38,313 bases of DNA from Clostridiales bacterium (lineage in GTDB: Bacteria > Bacillota > Sulfobacillia > Sulfobacillales > Sulfobacillaceae). Below are positions 9,375-36,576 of the stretch, piece by piece. The position numbers and the translations under genes were made by a program. The notes beneath the pieces are model-generated. The model saw only the letters and a program-made list of their open reading frames with translations, was not told where the DNA came from and ran no database searches. The DNA is taken from positions 1 to 38,313 of the forward strand of contig DAHXNH010000241.1 in NCBI GenBank assembly GCA_027365485.1, given 5' to 3'. Within the stretch, counting starts at the first letter, position 1. Each line of letters opens with the position of its first letter.

Positions 9375-10397
9375 GTGGCCAGAATGTCGTGGCAAATGTG
9401 GCTCGTCGGATTTCTGGGAGTAACGATCGGAGCGGTGGCCGTCCTCGGTCTAACAGGCCGCCCTGCCGTGGGTTTCAATTGGCCAGTCCCCCAAATCGCT
9501 GGCCAGGCAAGACCGTCGGTTACCGTAGTGCTCAACTATCAAAAAGGCCATCTCAAGGGGATGGGCACAGGGGTTATCGTTAAAGCCGCGGGAGATATTG
9601 TGACCAACTATCATGTGGTGGCCCACGCTACCAGGGTCGGGGTCATCCTGTCCAACGGACGACGCTATACAGCGAGCGTGGTGGGAACCGACCCCCCCAC
9701 GGACTTAGCGGTGGTGCACATCGCCCATGCTGGTCTGCTCAAACCAATACGCTTTGCCCCATCCACTCGGGTGGTGCCCGGAGAATTGGCGGTCGCCATC
9801 GGCAATTCTCTCGGACTAACCTACAGTGTTACCGCCGGCGTCATTTCAGCGCCCGATCGAACGGTTGAGCGTGATGGTCAAATCTACCATTTGATTCAGA
9901 CTGACGCCGCCATCAACCCTGGGAACAGTGGGGGACCCCTGCTCAATACCAGGGGCCAACTTATCGGCATCAATTCGAGTAAAATTGCTCAGACCGGAGT
10001 GGAGGGCATTGGCTTCGCTATTCCCGACAGCGTGCTCAAGGCGGTCATCGCGCAGATTTTGAAGTATGGGCAGGTCCAAAGACCTTGGATTGGAGTGGCC
10101 GTAGATGGGACTCGATCGGGCAGTGCTGGACTCTTTGTAGTTCGTGTCGAACCAAAGAGCCCGGCCGCGAAAGCAGGACTTCGACCGGGAGACTTCATTG
10201 CCAAAGTCAACGGCCATCCAATGCATACTCTCACGCAATGGACTGACGTTATCGCTTCGAGTCGTATTGGGCAGTCGCTTTCGCTGACCCTCTGGCGGGG
10301 TTCGGACCAACTGGCGGTATCCCTGCGCCTCGGTGCTCGACCAGGATCCGAGGCGCAGGCAGTCTCGGGAACGTCATCGAGGGCACCGGACTTCTGA
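9375..10397 (+). CDS. Membrane-anchored trypsin-like serine protease with PDZ domain (HtrA/DegP type)
   Basis: Protein quality-control protease of the HtrA family. A single membrane segment lies near residues 6-27 (MWLVGFLGVTIGAVAVLGL), after which the protease domain should be outside the membrane. The catalytic triad is visible: His80 (TNYHVVAH), Asp110 (PTDLAVVHI) and Ser185 (GNSGGPLL). A PDZ domain follows (KSPAAKAGLRPGDFIAKVNG). The GTG at 9375 lies seven bases after a strong AAGGAGG (9361-9367); the longer frame starting at 9333 contains this site and is rejected. The protein is about 340 residues, normal for single-PDZ bacterial members. The stop codon abuts a decayed nuclease gene. 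Confidence 0.93.
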   Translation: MARMSWQMWLVGFLGVTIGAVAVLGLTGRPAVGFNWPVPQIAGQARPSVTVVLNYQKGHLKGMGTGVIVKAAGDIVTNYHVVAHATRVGVILSNGRRYTASVVGTDPPTDLAVVHIAHAGLLKPIRFAPSTRVVPGELAVAIGNSLGLTYSVTAGVISAPDRTVERDGQIYHLIQTDAAINPGNSGGPLLNTRGQLIGINSSKIAQTGVEGIGFAIPDSVLKAVIAQILKYGQVQRPWIGVAVDGTRSGSAGLFVVRVEPKSPAAKAGLRPGDFIAKVNGHPMHTLTQWTDVIASSRIGQSLSLTLWRGSDQLAVSLRLGARPGSEAQAVSGTSSRAPDF

Positions 10398-12116: not shown

Positions 12117-12163
12117 CTATGCGAACTGTTCGCGGGATATAGCGGGAATTTCGGGGAGGGCTT

Positions 12164-12637
12164 ATGGCGCGACTAATCTTGCTTACTGTAGGAGTGCCTT
12201 CCGAACCGGCTATCCGCGACTTAGTCAGCGCCTACATACGCCGCATGCGCCCACCCTTTTGGGAGATGGAGTGGCAGACGGTGAAAGAGGTGTCGTATCA
12301 ACGGGGCCAAGAAACCCAAGCCAAAATCAAAGAAGCCCAAAAACTCTTAAGTAAAATTCCGGAACACGCCCTCATGGTTTTGTTGGATGTTAAAGGCGTC
12401 CAATGGAGCACAGAAGCGCTTTTGGTTGCAGTGCGGAACTGGCGGGATAGCGGACGACAGGTAGTGTTTGTGGTGGGTGGAAGCCTTGGGGTGGATTCCA
12501 GTGTTTATCAGCGCGCGGACCAGCGCTGGTCCCTATCGAAGCTCACGTTTCCCCATGCGTTGGCCCAACTCTTAGTGGCTGAGCAAATCTATCGTCTAGC
12601 CACATTAGATTTGGGACATCCATATCATAAAGCTTAG
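12164..12637 (+). CDS. rlmH: 23S rRNA (pseudouridine1915-N3)-methyltransferase
   Basis: A 157-residue SPOUT-class methyltransferase that methylates pseudouridine 1915 in helix 69 of 23S rRNA on the assembled ribosome, using S-adenosylmethionine. The trefoil-knot SAM site FVVGGSLGVDSSVYQRAD and the C-terminal signature LTFPHALAQLLVAEQIYRL ending in PYHKA are intact. The length is typical of RlmH. A GGGGAGGG site lies very close to the ATG. It is probably expressed with the oxidoreductase that starts 26 bases downstream. Confidence 0.96.
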   Translation: MARLILLTVGVPSEPAIRDLVSAYIRRMRPPFWEMEWQTVKEVSYQRGQETQAKIKEAQKLLSKIPEHALMVLLDVKGVQWSTEALLVAVRNWRDSGRQVVFVVGGSLGVDSSVYQRADQRWSLSKLTFPHALAQLLVAEQIYRLATLDLGHPYHKA

Positions 12638-12663
12638 CGACGGTTCGATAGGAGTGATGGTAG

Positions 12664-13713
12664 ATGTTACAGTTGTTTGAACCATTTTCTTGGAAAGGGT
12701 TGCAGTTAAAAAACCGGATCATGATGTCGCCCATGTGCCAATATTCGGTGTGGGATCGCGACGGTCGCCCTAATGCTTGGCATCAGACGCATTACATCAG
12801 TCGGGCGGTAGGTGGGGTCGGGTTGGTTATGATCGAGATGACCGATGTCCTGCCTGACGGAAGAATTACCGTTGGCGATCTGGGTTTGTGGGATGACCGT
12901 CAAATAGGGGCGTATCAGGTGATTATTGATGAGATTCATCGATACGGAGCTAAGGCGGGGATACAAATTGCTCATGCCGGCCGAAAGGCCGAATCACCCG
13001 AGCTCAACCCTGTCGGGCCCTCAGCCATCGCTTTTTCGGATCGTTATCGGGTTCCCCACGCGTTGACCACGATGGAGGTGGAGGACGTCGTCGAAGCGTT
13101 TCACCGAGCCGCCAAACGGGCGGTTGAAGCCGGGGTCGATACGCTGGAGTTGCATGGCGCTCATGGATATCTGATTCACCAATTTTTGTCGCCGATCTCA
13201 AATCACCGCGACGATCGGTATGGAGAGAGAACGCGATTTGGCGTTGAAGTGGTTCAAGCCGTAAGAAGCGCGATTGGGCCGAACATGCCGCTTTGGATGC
13301 GCGTGTCAGCGGTCGAGTACGACCCGATAGGCTATGATTTGGCTGAGATGGTCCCTATGGCCCGTCTCTTTCACGACGCCGGAGTGGATGGCTTTGACGT
13401 CTCGTCAGGCGGGAATGACACCAAAGGGCCGACAAAGCTTTTCCCCGGATATCAGGTGGCTTATGCTTCGGAAATAAAGAGACGAGTTGGCGTTCCCGTC
13501 ATTGCCGTGGGAATGCTCCAGGACTATGCATTGGCGGAATCCGTTTTACAGCGTGGGGATGCGGACATCATTGCCGTGGGACGAGGACTGCTTAAGGACC
13601 CCTATTGGGCCAATTCTGCTGCCCAAGCGCTCGGAGACAGCGTTCAGGTGCCTGAGCAGTACTATCGGGCTTTCCCTCATGAATTCCTGTCGCGGTCTAT
13701 CGAGAGTGATTGA
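12664..13713 (+). CDS. namA: NADPH dehydrogenase, old yellow enzyme family (YqjM/NamA type)
   Basis: A flavin (FMN) enzyme that reduces activated C=C bonds of alpha,beta-unsaturated carbonyls and nitro compounds with NADPH, with a likely role in detoxification of electrophiles. The TIM barrel has the YqjM-specific features: Cys25 in the SPMCQYS motif that tunes the flavin, the His164/His167 pair in LHGAHGYL that binds the substrate carbonyl, and the FMN-binding GRGLLKDP near the end. The 349-residue length fits the short thermophilic-like YqjM class. A TAGGAGTGATGG site precedes the ATG. It sits just after rlmH. Confidence 0.94.
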   Translation: MLQLFEPFSWKGLQLKNRIMMSPMCQYSVWDRDGRPNAWHQTHYISRAVGGVGLVMIEMTDVLPDGRITVGDLGLWDDRQIGAYQVIIDEIHRYGAKAGIQIAHAGRKAESPELNPVGPSAIAFSDRYRVPHALTTMEVEDVVEAFHRAAKRAVEAGVDTLELHGAHGYLIHQFLSPISNHRDDRYGERTRFGVEVVQAVRSAIGPNMPLWMRVSAVEYDPIGYDLAEMVPMARLFHDAGVDGFDVSSGGNDTKGPTKLFPGYQVAYASEIKRRVGVPVIAVGMLQDYALAESVLQRGDADIIAVGRGLLKDPYWANSAAQALGDSVQVPEQYYRAFPHEFLSRSIESD

Positions 13714-21744: not shown

Positions 21745-22659
21745 ATGCAAGAGGACAGTGGTATTGTTATGTTAGAGCCCGGTCGGCGAGGAGCCCCTGG
21801 GCCTAAGGTTCCACCGTGGATTAAGGTGCGGCTTACTCAGGGTAAAAACTATACGGACCTGAAGGACTTAATGCGGTCGCAGACCTTGCACACGGTGTGC
21901 GAAGAGGCGTTGTGTCCAAACATTTACGAGTGCTGGGAGGCGCGCACGGCCACATTTCTCATTTTAGGGGATATCTGTACGCGAAACTGTGGGTTTTGTG
22001 CTATTACCACGGGTCGCCCTACCCATCTAGACCGCGAAGAGCCGGCCCGGGTGGCGGCCACGACAAAGCATATGGGTCTTCGACACGTCGTTTTGACGTC
22101 GGTCACTCGGGATGATCTCGCCGACGGCGGCGCCGAAATTTTTGCCGAAACCATTCGGGCAATTCGCCGTGAGGTGCCGGGATGTGGCGTAGAAGTCCTG
22201 ACGCCCGATCTGATGGGTAATTGGGAGGCGCTTTCGACCATTGTCGAGGCGCATCCAGATATTTTTAACCATAATACGGAAAGTGTTCCCCGATTGTATC
22301 CTCGAGTTCGCCCCAAGGCGCGCTATGAGCGGACGATGGAGTTGCTGCAGCGGGTAAAGCGTCAAGATCCGAGTATCATTACCAAATCCGGTATTATGGT
22401 TGGCTTCGGGGAAACTCGGGAAGAAATTCACCAAGTGTTCGCGGATCTTAGAAGTCACCAAGTGGATGTGCTTACGGTCGGCCAATACTTGCGACCCGAT
22501 CTCGACCATTTGCCGGTGGTGCGCTACTATCCCCCTGAAGAGTTTCTCGCCATCAAAGAAGAAGCTCAAGCCCTCGGATTCTTGCATGTGGAGTCGGGTC
22601 CTTTGGTGCGCAGTTCTTATCATGCTGCTTCCCAGGTCCCGACCGTGGCGCCTTCGTGA
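21745..22659 (+). CDS. lipA: Lipoyl synthase
   Basis: A radical-SAM enzyme that inserts two sulfur atoms into octanoyl-lysine on E2 to give the lipoyl group. The auxiliary iron-sulfur cluster is bound by C52-x4-C57-x5-C63 ([12 protein letters not shown]), the radical-SAM cluster by C78-x3-C82-x2-C85 (CTRNCGFC), and the C-terminal RSSYHA carries the serine ligand of the auxiliary cluster. The 304-residue length is typical. It is 39 bases after E2 and one base before lipB, which makes the unit a self-sufficient lipoylated complex. Confidence 0.97.
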
Positions 22660-27237: not shown

Positions 27238-27447
27238 TCAGACGACAACCGTATGGGCCGTCGTCTGTGGTTCGGGCCAGGGGGTACCATCCTGTGACAG
27301 TCCTTCCAAATGGAAGACCAAAGCCGCCCGAAATTCGTCCAGGGTCGCACCGATCGTTTGACCCGTAGCGATACACCCAGGGACGTCAGGCGAATACGCC
27401 GAATAATTCGATCCCGTTCGCTCAACAATGACCGTATACTGCTGCAT
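27238..27447 (-). CDS. hicB: HicB-family antitoxin
   Basis: A 69-residue protein with the RNase-H-like HicB fold: YTVIVERTGSNYSAYSPDVPGCIATGQT, then the ETLDEF-like helix TLDEFRAALVFHLEGL and a GTPWPEP end typical of HicB. It is short and has no C-terminal DNA-binding domain, as in many small HicBs. The ATG at 27450 or 27447 is preceded by AAGGAGG and overlaps the hicA stop codon. It should bind and neutralise the HicA endoribonuclease encoded just upstream on the same strand. Confidence 0.88.
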   Translation of the reverse strand: MQQYTVIVERTGSNYSAYSPDVPGCIATGQTIGATLDEFRAALVFHLEGLSQDGTPWPEPQTTAHTVVV

Positions 27448-27638
27448 CATCGTTCCTCCTTGCGCCATCCTGCTTGCCGTTGAATGCTGCGCCATGTACC
27501 CGGGGCAACCTCATCTTGAAGATGTCCTGCAACCGTCACCCGACCCGGTTTTGTCGAGTGTTTATATTGCCGATGACTACCAGGGGTGGCTACCAGCAGC
27601 CAATCGTCGGCTTCTAATGCATGCATGATATCCCGCAC
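27447..27638 (-). CDS. hicA: HicA-family mRNA interferase toxin
   Basis: A 63-residue HicA-type toxin that cleaves mRNA on translating or free RNA. The double-stranded RNA-binding-like fold is visible as RDIMHALEADDWLLVATPGSHRQYKH, with the conserved Gly-Ser-His (His22) expected to be catalytic, then GRVTVAGHLQDEVAPGTWRSIQRQAG. The start GTG 27638 lies behind only a weak GCGGGA, so the true start may be a nearby non-ATG codon. Gene order toxin-antitoxin, with overlapping ends, is canonical. It sits beside a tRNA-like sequence and an IS remnant. Confidence 0.87.
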   Translation of the reverse strand: MRDIMHALEADDWLLVATPGSHRQYKHSTKPGRVTVAGHLQDEVAPGTWRSIQRQAGWRKEER

Positions 27639-27660
27639 TTTTATCGTAAATCCCGCAGTT

Positions 27661-27683
27661 TCATGTTCATGACCTCTATTATA
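27661..27683 (-). promoter_or_regulatory. hicAB promoter -10 and candidate operator
   Basis: On the reverse strand a TATAAT (27678-27683) precedes hicA. Downstream of it is a perfect dyad, TCATGAACATGA (27661-27672, with two central bases), located between the -10 and the hicA start, as an autoregulatory operator would be. No good -35 is seen. Confidence 0.45.
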
Positions 27684-27942
27684 CCCTCCAAGAATGATTA
27701 CGCCGATCGCCACACCAATACCAAATGTCTACGCGAGCGTATGATGCGAGACAACAGTTGGCCATTACTTCACGATGCGAATAGCCGGATAACCAGTTCT
27801 GAACGGTTCGGTCGACGAACTGGCTCTCACGCACTTTCTGGTATTGATAATTGACGAAGTTGCGATAACGCGAACGGAAATGAGTGTGTATTGATTGTTT
27901 GCCGATGATAACATAGCGAAAATGGGATGCTCTATGAAAATA

Positions 27943-28062: not shown

Positions 28063-28963
28063 CTAGGCAGCCTCGGGATAAGGCTGCTGAGTAGGATCTA
28101 AATCATAGTAATACCAGGGGAGGGCGAAGAGCGCATTGAGGAGTTCCAGTCCTGCTCGTCCATACCCCCGTCGACGGACCATTTTGGTTTTGTTGTTAGT
28201 CCCCTCCATGGGGCCATTGCTAATGGCCGGATAGCGTAGGCAGTTTTTCACCGCCTCGATATCCTGTTTCAGTCCGGAGGCGAACTCCGCAATCGGTTCC
28301 GAGGCGTCGTCCTGATACGTCTGAATGAATCGGTCCAGGCCTGCCTCATCGCCGGTATCCCGAATCGTGGTAAAGGTGGATAGGCACGTCCGTAGCCGAG
28401 CCACAATCGGGAGCTTGGCTTCCAGCTCCGTATACCATTCAGCGCTCACGATCTTGCTGGGCTTCGAAACGAGGCGTGCGTATCAAAAATGATGGCGACC
28501 GTGGCGTCATCGTAGGCCGTCGTATTGATCCAGGGGGCGGGCACGGACGCCGTCTTTGGTGCTTTGAGGGTCGCACTCTCGACCGAGGCCAGGCCCGTTC
28601 GGGCCTGCAAGGCCGTCGCCCGTTCGTGCGCGACTTCCTGTATTAGGCGTCGATAGATGGAGCCCCGAGCAAATTGGACAAACGCGCCCCGGAGACGGCA
28701 AAGCCGTCCATGGGTTCCACAAAGGGGTAGACGGGACAATCCGGCTGGTCACCAATGTAGCGCGTGTTGGTCATCCTGTGATACACGGTCTTCCCATCCA
28801 ACGGAAAATCTTGCACCGTATGGTCGGTATACCGCTTGGCGGAGTGCCGACTCACGGTGTGGCAGACCGGGCACGTGGCCTGGTCCGACCGCGACCGCCA
28901 TTGAAAGTGCCAGCATTTTTCACCCCGTTCAACTTCCGTCAATCCCAAGTCACTCGGTATCAA
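28063..28963 (-). pseudogene. ISL3-family transposase, broken
   Basis: Three fragments on the reverse strand add up to an ISL3 transposase lacking its middle. The N-terminal zinc-ribbon fragment reads CPVCHTVSRHSAKRYTDHTV and YIGDQPDCPVYPFVEPMDGF; a one-base loss near 28680 then shifts to a helix FVQFARGSIYRRLIQEVA; and the C-terminal fragment (28063-28449) holds SNGPMEGTNNKTKMVRRRGYGRAG, the last catalytic block. The central D-containing region is missing. At about 300 codons it is much shorter than intact ISL3 transposases, so it cannot be active. Confidence 0.85.
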
Positions 28964-34646: not shown

Positions 34647-35094
34647 CCGGTCTTTGCTGCTAAGAGCGCGAGGAACACGGGAGTTCGATTGTATCCTGCT
34701 GATGAACCATGGCGTGGTCAACGATGCGATTTTGGACCTGGTCGAGTCGGGTAGCGGGTAGAGAGCTAACCGTTTAACTGCCATTGAGGATGCCTTGGTT
34801 GGAGGGCAAAGACTCTCCATTGTCCGTTGCGATTCATCCTCGGATGAACGAATCTGGTCCCCGCCATGAACCGATGGCAGCCCATCTTGGATTGAACAAA
34901 ACGGCGGCGCTTTTTACGGTGAAGAGGTCGGCCAGAACTTCCTCTCGTGGGGTTTTTCGCCATTGGACCATGGACCGGTCCACTAGCAGAATTCCGTTCG
35001 CCTCCTCCGAGAGCGTATTCTAAGCGTCAGCCTGGCAAGGTCGTGGGGTTAAGGTGGACCACCCTGGCCGTATAATACAAAGTACGCATGAGCC
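34647..35094. other. Intergenic region before the ISL3 end
   Basis: About 450 bases without a supported gene. A perfect TATAAT at 35071 precedes CGCATG but has no clear -35. The palindrome AGGTGGACCACC is at 35052-35063. The sequence up to 35094 does not match the ISL3 remnant upstream. Confidence 0.35.
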
Positions 35095-35223
35095 CATCGC
35101 GTCGAGGATGTTCAGCGTATGATTTCGGTCGTATTTGCATCGAACCGCTCTCGGGGAAGATCACTCTGTTTTTGCTTAATGGTTACTGGGTCAATTATTA
35201 ATACCAGAAAGTGCGTAAGAGCC
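35095..35223 (-). mobile_element. Solitary ISL3 end fragment
   Basis: This 129-base stretch is a diverged copy of the right end of the ISL3 remnant (29133-29260), starting with the shared CATCGCGTCGAGGATG and ending in AAAGTGCGTAAGAGCC (35208-35223), which is the terminal inverted repeat. No transposase lies inside it. The right side abuts the C-terminal part of an ISAs1 transposase frame, so the element seems to have inserted in, or been joined to, the ISAs1 copy. Confidence 0.75.
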
Positions 35224-35939
35224 GAATATTGGGCAGCTTCATCCGTCGGATCAAGCCGATGGCGACATTTCGCAGCGTTGCCATAACTTGTGGACCGCAT
35301 TCGGTCCGGATTTGGGACCGGCCTTCATCAAATGCCATGTTCCGGACGGCATGCAGGCGGGTTTCTGTGTCCCACCCAGTGCGCTCGCGCCTGCCCCCCG
35401 ATTTGCTGAGCTGGGGCCTTTTGCGGACGCAATCTCGTGACGCCGAAGACCATCTCATCGCGGGGATTTTCTCCCACGAGGTGGGTCACATGGCGGTCAA
35501 TGTGAAAGATCTGGCCCAAATCGGGCCAGTGTAGATAGGCATTGAGGACAGTCGAGGTGCGCACGGTCCGCTGCTCGATACGGCCATGCCCTTTATCGAG
35601 GGTGATGCTCGGAGGACTATAGTCGTCCAACTCGACGGCCAGCGCATCATCCTCCTGAAGGGAATTCTGGCTTAACCACTCATTGATGACGGCGTTGTCG
35701 GCATCGCCGTCTAGGCTTTGCAGGGCCCGACGGATGGTCGCCTCGCCGTACTGGGGACTATAAAGGTTGGTCCGCAGCGCTCGCGGTGTACTGGACTCAA
35801 GTCATGATTTCCAGTCGCTGATCGCGACATGGGAGATCCTCCCAGCGAGTACAGCGGCTAGGGCCAACAGCAGGACTTCCTCTAAGAGGAAACGAAAATT
35901 CCGCTGATGACGGGGATCAATCAGGATCGAGAGACGGCC
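35198..35939 (-). pseudogene. ISAs1-family transposase, broken
   Basis: On the reverse strand the N-terminal DDE_Tnp_1-associated block RLSILIDPRHQRNFRFLLEE and LALAAVLAGRISHVAISDW is at about 35805-35939. A frame interruption follows, then SPQYGEATIRRALQSLDG and INEWLSQNSLQED, a deletion joining ALAVELD to DYSPPS, and then DKGHGRIEQRTVRTSTVLNAY, the C-terminal catalytic block. A further shift near 35370 leads to RLHAVRNMAFDEGRSQIRT. The central catalytic part is lost, so it is inactive. The C-terminus reads into the ISL3 repeat. Confidence 0.85.
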
Positions 35940-36202
35940 GCGGAGGCCGGAAGGCCTGCCAGTTGAGTGTTTCCCGATCGATTCTGAAGAACCGTTGCCT
36001 CCGTCTGAGCCAGAGGTTCGTCCGGACGCTGAGCATCCCTGACTCCACCTCACCCGTAATTTTGCTGACAGACCTTCACTGGAACAGAGCGGTCGAAAAA
36101 TGTTCATTCCCTTAAAAAAGGCGTAAACACAAGGCTTTACTAGACTTTGACGAGGCCTTGCTGGCCGAACCATGACATGTTGCAGTGTCAGCAGACGATG
36201 GG

Positions 36203-36230
36203 TTAACATCGGAATCGGCTACGGTAATAT
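36203..36230 (+). promoter_or_regulatory. Putative promoter of the RiPP precursor gene
   Basis: TTAACA (36203-36208), a 16-base spacer and TAATAT (36225-36230) lie 22 bases before the start. Just upstream TGACA (36173-36177) and TGTCA (36186-36190) form an inverted repeat resembling the TGACATA half-sites of the dyad at 37717. Confidence 0.5.
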
Positions 36231-36252
36231 GAATAATTGGGGAGGTGAAACC

Positions 36253-36576
36253 ATGAGCGAATGGACTAAAGAAAAAATCGATCGCGTGATGAAATCCGTA
36301 CGGGAGCGTGCGGCCGAGGATAGATCGTTTCGAAAAGAGCTGTTAGCGCATCCGCATCAAGCCATCAAAGATGCGACTGGGGAAGTCGTTCCCGACTCGA
36401 TTCGGCTCCAACTAGTCGATCAAAGTGCCGCACATATCACGGTGGTGTTGCCACCAATAACTCAGGCGTCCGATGACGAGTTATCTGAACAGCAACTTGA
36501 GACGGTGGCGGGAGGAAAGATGAGCCAGCAAACCGCAGAATATATGAATAGTTGGTTCTCATGGTCTGTAAATTAG
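36253..36576 (+). CDS. NHLP-type (nitrile-hydratase-like leader) RiPP precursor peptide
   Basis: A 107-residue precursor of a ribosomally made, modified peptide. The N-terminal 70 residues show the nitrile hydratase alpha-like leader: a helix-rich start (IDRVMKSVRERAAEDRSF), LLAHPHQAIKDATGEVVPDSI and the strand AHITVVLPP. Then comes DDELSEQQLETVAGG, the double-glycine cleavage site (Gly87-Gly88) recognised by C39 peptidase/ABC exporters. The 19-residue core has no Cys, is rich in aromatic residues and ends WFSWSVN. The start ATG 36253 follows GGGGAGGTGA. No maturation enzyme, protease or exporter is in the window. A housekeeping nitrile hydratase is excluded: the metal-site Cys motif is absent. 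Confidence 0.88.
   Translation: MSEWTKEKIDRVMKSVRERAAEDRSFRKELLAHPHQAIKDATGEVVPDSIRLQLVDQSAAHITVVLPPITQASDDELSEQQLETVAGGKMSQQTAEYMNSWFSWSVN

Follow-up and report, generated by a model that had tools for sequence, protein, structure and literature searches.

The precursor gene and its surroundings

The window analysed here, the whole stretch of DNA under study, is the entire contig C202 (38313 bp) of a 4.93-Mb assembly that comprises 440 contigs and is 96% complete. An open reading frame on its forward strand at positions 36253–36576 encodes 107 aa plus stop, and the translation divides into a leader, MSEWTKEKIDRVMKSVRERAAEDRSFRKELLAHPHQAIKDATGEVVPDSIRLQLVDQSAAHITVVLPPITQASDDELSEQQLETVAGG, and a core, KMSQQTAEYMNSWFSWSVN. 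The TIGR03793 model (leader_NHLP) matches residues 12–88 of this protein with 59.0 bits (E 3e-16) against a curated cut-off of 50.9 bits, which confirms the NHLP-type RiPP precursor proposed for this interval by an earlier sequence-only reading, and weak matches to nitrile hydratase alpha are consistent with the same leader family. The nitrile-hydratase-like leader spans residues 1–88 (36253–36516) and ends in VAGG at residues 85–88, of which Gly87-Gly88 (36511–36516) is the presumed site of cleavage by a C39 peptidase. The core that follows (residues 89–107; 36517–36573) has 19 residues, is Cys-free, contains YMN and WFSW, and has a computed unmodified mass of 2323.00 Da; its first codon (36517–36519) specifies its only Lys, hereafter Lys1, the proposed site of acylation. 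Both the double-glycine site and the Cys-free core with its two aromatic motifs, as originally described, are thus borne out in the translation.

Upstream on the same strand lie a sequence that reads as a ribosome-binding site, GGGGAGGTG (36239–36247), with GGGGAGG about 7 nt 5' of the ATG, and a promoter-like pair, TTAACA-16-TAATAT (36203–36230), assigned by consensus match only (9/12). Within the window, no gene for NHLP-type export or modification was recognised, as the sequence-only reading had also noted, and because the window is a whole contig the DNA past its end is unreadable in the present assembly. Other features of the window include a HicA/HicB toxin-antitoxin pair on the reverse strand at 27238–27713 (PF07927, PF15919) and, on the same strand at 28063–28963, a broken ISL3-type transposase with PF01610 in one fragment.

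Paralogous precursors and a single exporter

Three TIGR03793 matches exceed the cut-off genome-wide: the window gene and two genes on contig C93 (ORFs 9623–10009 and 12154–12570), the paralogues that the earlier reading had suggested seeking. Their identity to the window protein over the aligned stretch is 68% and 60%, and the leader ends of all three are near letter-identical, with VDQSAAH... and then S(D/E)DELSEQQLE(T/A)VAGGK. The C93 cores, KGMSGQEWSPIENIPIMPQQGQGPGVVIMPPNSISMPLSKG and KGGVTQGQFLSGLSDIGDVLNTVASPLGVFTGTAVGTAAHTA, are also Cys-free and begin with Lys, so that each of the three NHLP precursors of the genome has Lys immediately after GG, and are otherwise unrelated to the window core; the second resembles a Gly/Ala-rich class II-type peptide. 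Upstream of both C93 precursors are two shared blocks, TTGACGCTT and GCGTCGTTCCT, and in the DNA upstream of 9623 and 12181 an arrangement CGAGAAG...CTTCTCG could form a hairpin around the latter block just 5' of each gene. No 9-mer was found in common between the DNA upstream of the window gene and that upstream of the C93 precursors, and shared regulation of the three genes was rejected on this ground.

The two C93 precursors are followed by a GNAT gene and by a full NHLM exporter set, consisting of HlyD (TIGR03794), NHLM ABC1 with a C39 domain (TIGR03796), and ABC2 (TIGR03797), so that the GNAT gene sits between the precursors and the exporter genes. The ABC1 protein scores 1087.6 bits against a TIGR03796 cut-off of 853.3, and a genome-wide search for C39 exporters, the follow-up originally proposed, returned it as the single C39 match, as is likewise the case in the genome of a congener (G001). 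Full-length NHLM ABC1 proteins above the cut-off occur in two of the 81 genomes searched (its own and 80 relatives), and these are the two carriers of the window precursor or its orthologue; strong matches to the precursor itself are confined to the same two genomes, with one further weak match (7e-4). This co-occurrence ties the leader to the exporter, with two congeners that are not independent of each other. Judging from these matches, the window precursor is very probably exported in trans by the C93 system, whose transporter would cut after Gly87-Gly88 and release a short peptide with a role most likely outside the cell. The earlier suggestion of action in trans thereby gains a set of partners on C93, namely two paralogues, the C39 exporter and an enzyme that is a candidate for modification, although the window gene, unlinked to the cluster and sharing no upstream 9-mer with its precursors, need not be expressed together with it.

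Conservation in a congener

The congener carries the same NHLM/GNAT machinery, on a contig that is that of the MAG Bacillota bacterium FK_Sedi_B_Bin.94, and an intact, 89% identical orthologue of the window precursor in the same setting, next to the serine-hydrolase gene and with the other neighbours shared as well. Over residues 1–105, dN is 0.057 and dS 0.228 (ratio 0.25, NG86); for just the 17 aligned core codons the ratio is 0.31, the sample being too small to weigh. An intact orthologue at the same site, together with this ratio over residues 1–105, shows that the window ORF is not a chance reading frame. The congener core, KMSQQTAEYINSWLSWGK, is identical at 14 of the 17 aligned residues and keeps both W-X-S-W and Y-X-N, the latter as YIN in place of YMN. 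A block of about 270 bp upstream of the gene (35985–36252 in the window) is conserved as well, and between this block and the serine-hydrolase side the window species has about 1 kb of extra DNA (about 34.99–35.98 kb) that is absent from the congener; a Pfam search with one ORF of this segment (about 34990–35985) gave no match.

The same comparison bears on whether the gene is a relic of a lost second cluster whose product is no longer matured. Such an origin would suit a gene that is unlinked to any machinery and has an insertion nearby, and would also suit the state of one cluster precursor in the congener, where the copy of the first C93 precursor (contig C235, about 350–630) is split over two frames through a frameshift or an assembly error. 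The window gene itself, however, is intact at one site in both species, with the dN/dS, the 14 identical core residues and the retained upstream block described above, and we therefore consider a relic improbable.

Searches for modification enzymes

Genome-wide searches for modification enzymes, likewise proposed by the earlier reading, found no match to LANC_like (PF05147), which together with a Cys-free core leaves the peptide outside the lanthipeptides, and no match to YcaO (PF02624), which places it outside the azole-containing (TOMM) peptides. Radical-SAM domains (PF04055) gave 13 matches, one of them a LipA-like ORF in the window itself (21745–22659), and ten were scanned against families, with an RlmN-like protein and a fragment left aside (a C285 protein and a sub-threshold C116 fragment). 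The ten comprise two MoaA-like proteins, MiaB, a HemW-like and an Rv2578c-like protein, LipA, a CofH/MqnC-like protein, a TIGR04053 radical-SAM/SPASM protein just over its cut-off, and two anaerobic sulfatase maturases over theirs; none of the ten passed a peptide-maturase or cyclophane cut-off.

The sequence-only reading had raised, as speculation, a radical-SAM cyclophane at YMN. A cyclophane or other ring at Y-X-N or between the aromatic residues, installed by an enzyme encoded elsewhere in the genome, could draw on the retention of Y-X-N and W-X-S-W in the congener and on the presence of the TIGR04053 protein and the two maturase-like proteins, but the latter pair exceed the sulfatase-maturase cut-off and fall far below every cyclophane cut-off, and a sulfatase encoded on C93 fits their presence. 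The triplet, changed to YIN in the congener, is moreover absent from both C93 precursors, and no radical-SAM gene lies near any of the three precursor genes. Ring formation of this kind is therefore very improbable, and the cyclophane, lanthionine and azole routes are all unsupported after these domain searches. Acylation by the tandem GNAT of the Lys that follows GG, a possibility that the sequence-only reading had not raised, is the better-supported modification.

The tandem GNAT and its relatives

The C93 GNAT contains two Acetyltransf_1 stretches (Pfam) and is thus of the tandem type. Its longest ORF covers 12590–13648, but the alignment with the congener begins only at about 12710 and relatives start at the position of the Met at 12809, which leaves the true start uncertain. 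A PDB sequence search returned no match, and the AlphaFold model is poor (mean pLDDT 54), so that its top Foldseek matches, tandem GNATs such as VipF and a clavulanate-pathway protein, count as weak support.

Relatives of this enzyme are rare: they occur in two other genomes among the 398 sampled in the phylum (loci L038 and L039) and at six loci in genome_contigs, which include these two and the congener. An NHLP precursor adjoins the GNAT at four of the five non-congener loci (L037, L038, L040 and L041), and at the fifth, L039, one lies at the contig edge a few kb away. Relatives accompanied by NHLP or Nif11 precursors are found in Clostridia, Pelotomaculum, Mesorhizobium and Shinella; on a Mesorhizobium plasmid the gene lies inside a Nif11/NHLM cluster and on a Shinella plasmid beside Nif11 and NHLP precursors, and these RiPP-linked GNATs are 25–29% identical to that of C93. 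The Shinella locus (L064, 4950–9159) holds two GNATs, the Nif11 and NHLP precursors, a radical-SAM gene and an NHLM transporter gene. In Microcoleus, an unannotated GG-type precursor is located about 3 kb upstream of the GNAT relative and an ABC-transporter-like ORF downstream. The relatives in Nostoc and Gloeothece are instead fused to TIGR03032 proteins, and each fusion is followed by a protein with a cadherin-like or Ig-like domain. NHLP cores of seven residues, GTKWDIG, GSSTKSF and HSAPKNF, are encoded at L037 (7243–7848), L038 and L034, where the precursor genes adjoin genes for a GNAT, an ACP, an NRPS-like adenylation protein, a PPTase-like protein and a KS-CLF-like protein.

Lys1 as the probable acceptor

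Lys directly follows GG also in the Microcoleus (VSGG/KGG) and Mesorhizobium (VGG/KHH) precursors. The first core residue is other than Lys at L037, L038, L040, L041 and in Shinella, and nearly all of those cores contain Lys elsewhere. In a comparison with seven unlinked NHLP cores from the phylum, any Lys in the core is present in 8/9 GNAT-linked and 2/7 unlinked precursors (Fisher p 0.035), and Lys1 in 4/11 and 0/7 (p 0.12), respectively; these counts are small, include related sequences and come from a test chosen after looking, and are suggestive only. NpuN, itself of the tandem GNAT type, acylates NpuA at Lys1, and a K1A substitution abolishes acylation (PMC13060382); its relatives are found with NHLP or Nif11 precursors, and a lanthionine synthetase is not always present (PMC13060382). 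By analogy with nostolysamide, we lean towards acylation of Lys1 in the window core.

The principal competing account is that of an unmodified double-glycine peptide, a bacteriocin or signal, whose leader serves for C93 NHLM export only and whose 19-mer acts as made; the GNAT would then serve only the C93 precursors, confer immunity or be unrelated. This would agree with a leader and GG site that are the only parts shared among the precursors, with the report that leader conservation is chiefly linked to the transporter (PMC2887384), with a window gene that stands alone with its own upstream DNA, and with the class II-type look of the second C93 core. It accounts less well for a Lys1 common to three otherwise unrelated cores and to GNAT-linked precursors in other phyla, or for GNAT relatives that track NHLP and Nif11 precursors, and we regard it as rather unlikely.

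A putative acyl cassette on contig C93

Beyond ABC2, contig C93 encodes a CHASE4/HAMP protein, a small family-less protein, an MFS-like protein and a MinD-like ATPase, followed by a double ketosynthase, an ACP, a FabG-like reductase (assigned by sequence), an amino acid:ACP ligase-like protein (147.6 bits, below the family cut-off of 357) and an SDR-like protein. The TAC active-site motif is retained, together with two His motifs, in the first ketosynthase domain; the second reads STGG in place of TAC, for which reason the protein is called KS-CLF-like. In two Clostridia MAGs a GNAT and an NHLP precursor are again accompanied by the double ketosynthase, the ACP and the SDR, at identities of 35–36%, 51% and 25%, respectively, which argues that the acyl cassette is part of the peptide system and not a chance neighbour. 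Assembly of the cispentacin type by the ketosynthase was considered and rejected, as the AmcF match (193 bits against a cut-off of 325) was one of many ketosynthase matches, with fabF scoring higher. That the acyl chain is built by C93's own cassette is plausible, if somewhat short of an even prospect; the KS-CLF-like fusion, the FabG-like reductase and the SDR may make the acyl group on the cluster ACP, and the start of the chain may run through the amino acid:ACP ligase-like protein.

In our preferred account, the window gene would be the unlinked one of three NHLP RiPP precursor genes served by machinery on contig C93, and the tandem-domain GNAT would probably attach an acyl group at the Lys1 side chain. 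As a whole, this account of an orphan precursor that acts in trans, is exported by the C93 system and is probably acylated at Lys1 is modestly favoured. The use of the C93 exporter by the window peptide, the acylation of Lys1, the nature of the chain and the biological role are the parts that we infer, and the occurrence of GNAT relatives partly in other contexts, such as TIGR03032 fusions, and of GNAT-linked precursors without Lys1 count against it. A more specific and more doubtful proposal is a RiPP-polyketide hybrid, in which Lys1 of all three NHLP peptides would receive a GNAT-joined chain made by the KS-CLF/ACP/FabG/SDR set from a carrier-bound amino acid starter, with one precursor encoded far off and matured in trans.

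Relation to known systems

The leader family, the GG site, the hypervariable core, the several precursors per genome and the three-gene NHLM exporter in the same genome are all shared with NHLP/NHLM systems (Haft, Basu and Mitchell, 2010; PMC2887384), for which precursors far from modification genes have already been described (PMC2887384). The present system differs from these in that no cyclodehydratase or LanM is found and the candidate modifier is a tandem GNAT. Selidamides and nostolysamides (NpuA/NpuN; kamptornamide, phaeornamide) likewise combine an NHLP or Nif11 leader, a tandem GNAT, a Lys as the first core residue and an ABC exporter (PMC13060382, PMC9505594), and the C93 GNAT, which resembles NpuN in domain type and context, may be its counterpart. 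Here, the tandem GNAT adjoins the C93 precursors and would act in trans on the window peptide, whose core has no Lys other than the proposed acceptor, Lys1. No lanthionine synthetase is found and the window precursor is unlinked, in contrast to the described clusters, although relatives without a lanthionine synthetase have been reported (PMC13060382, PMC9505594). A further difference is that C93 encodes its own KS-CLF/ACP/FabG/SDR/amino acid:ACP ligase set, whereas primary metabolism is described as the source of the fatty acids in the known selidamides and nostolysamides (PMC13060382, PMC9505594). Lipolanthines and goadvionins, which are N-terminally acylated class III-type lanthipeptides, offer a precedent in which a GNAT couples a ribosomally made peptide to a chain that a dedicated pathway supplies (PMC9505594, PMC13060382), as we propose for C93; by comparison, the system described here has an NHLP leader, no lanthionine enzyme that could be found, and a Lys side chain as the likely acceptor.

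The window peptide is thus a further member of a known precursor family, and the combination of NHLP precursors with a tandem GNAT and a KS-CLF-like cassette appears new in the literature examined. What had been a lone precursor can thereby be assigned, as one of its substrates, to a definable system for export and probable acylation, within a gene set where a GNAT appears to link NHLP peptides with a dedicated type II-like acyl pathway. If this is true, the organism would provide three natural cores with which the role of one leader in lipidation and export in trans could be tested.
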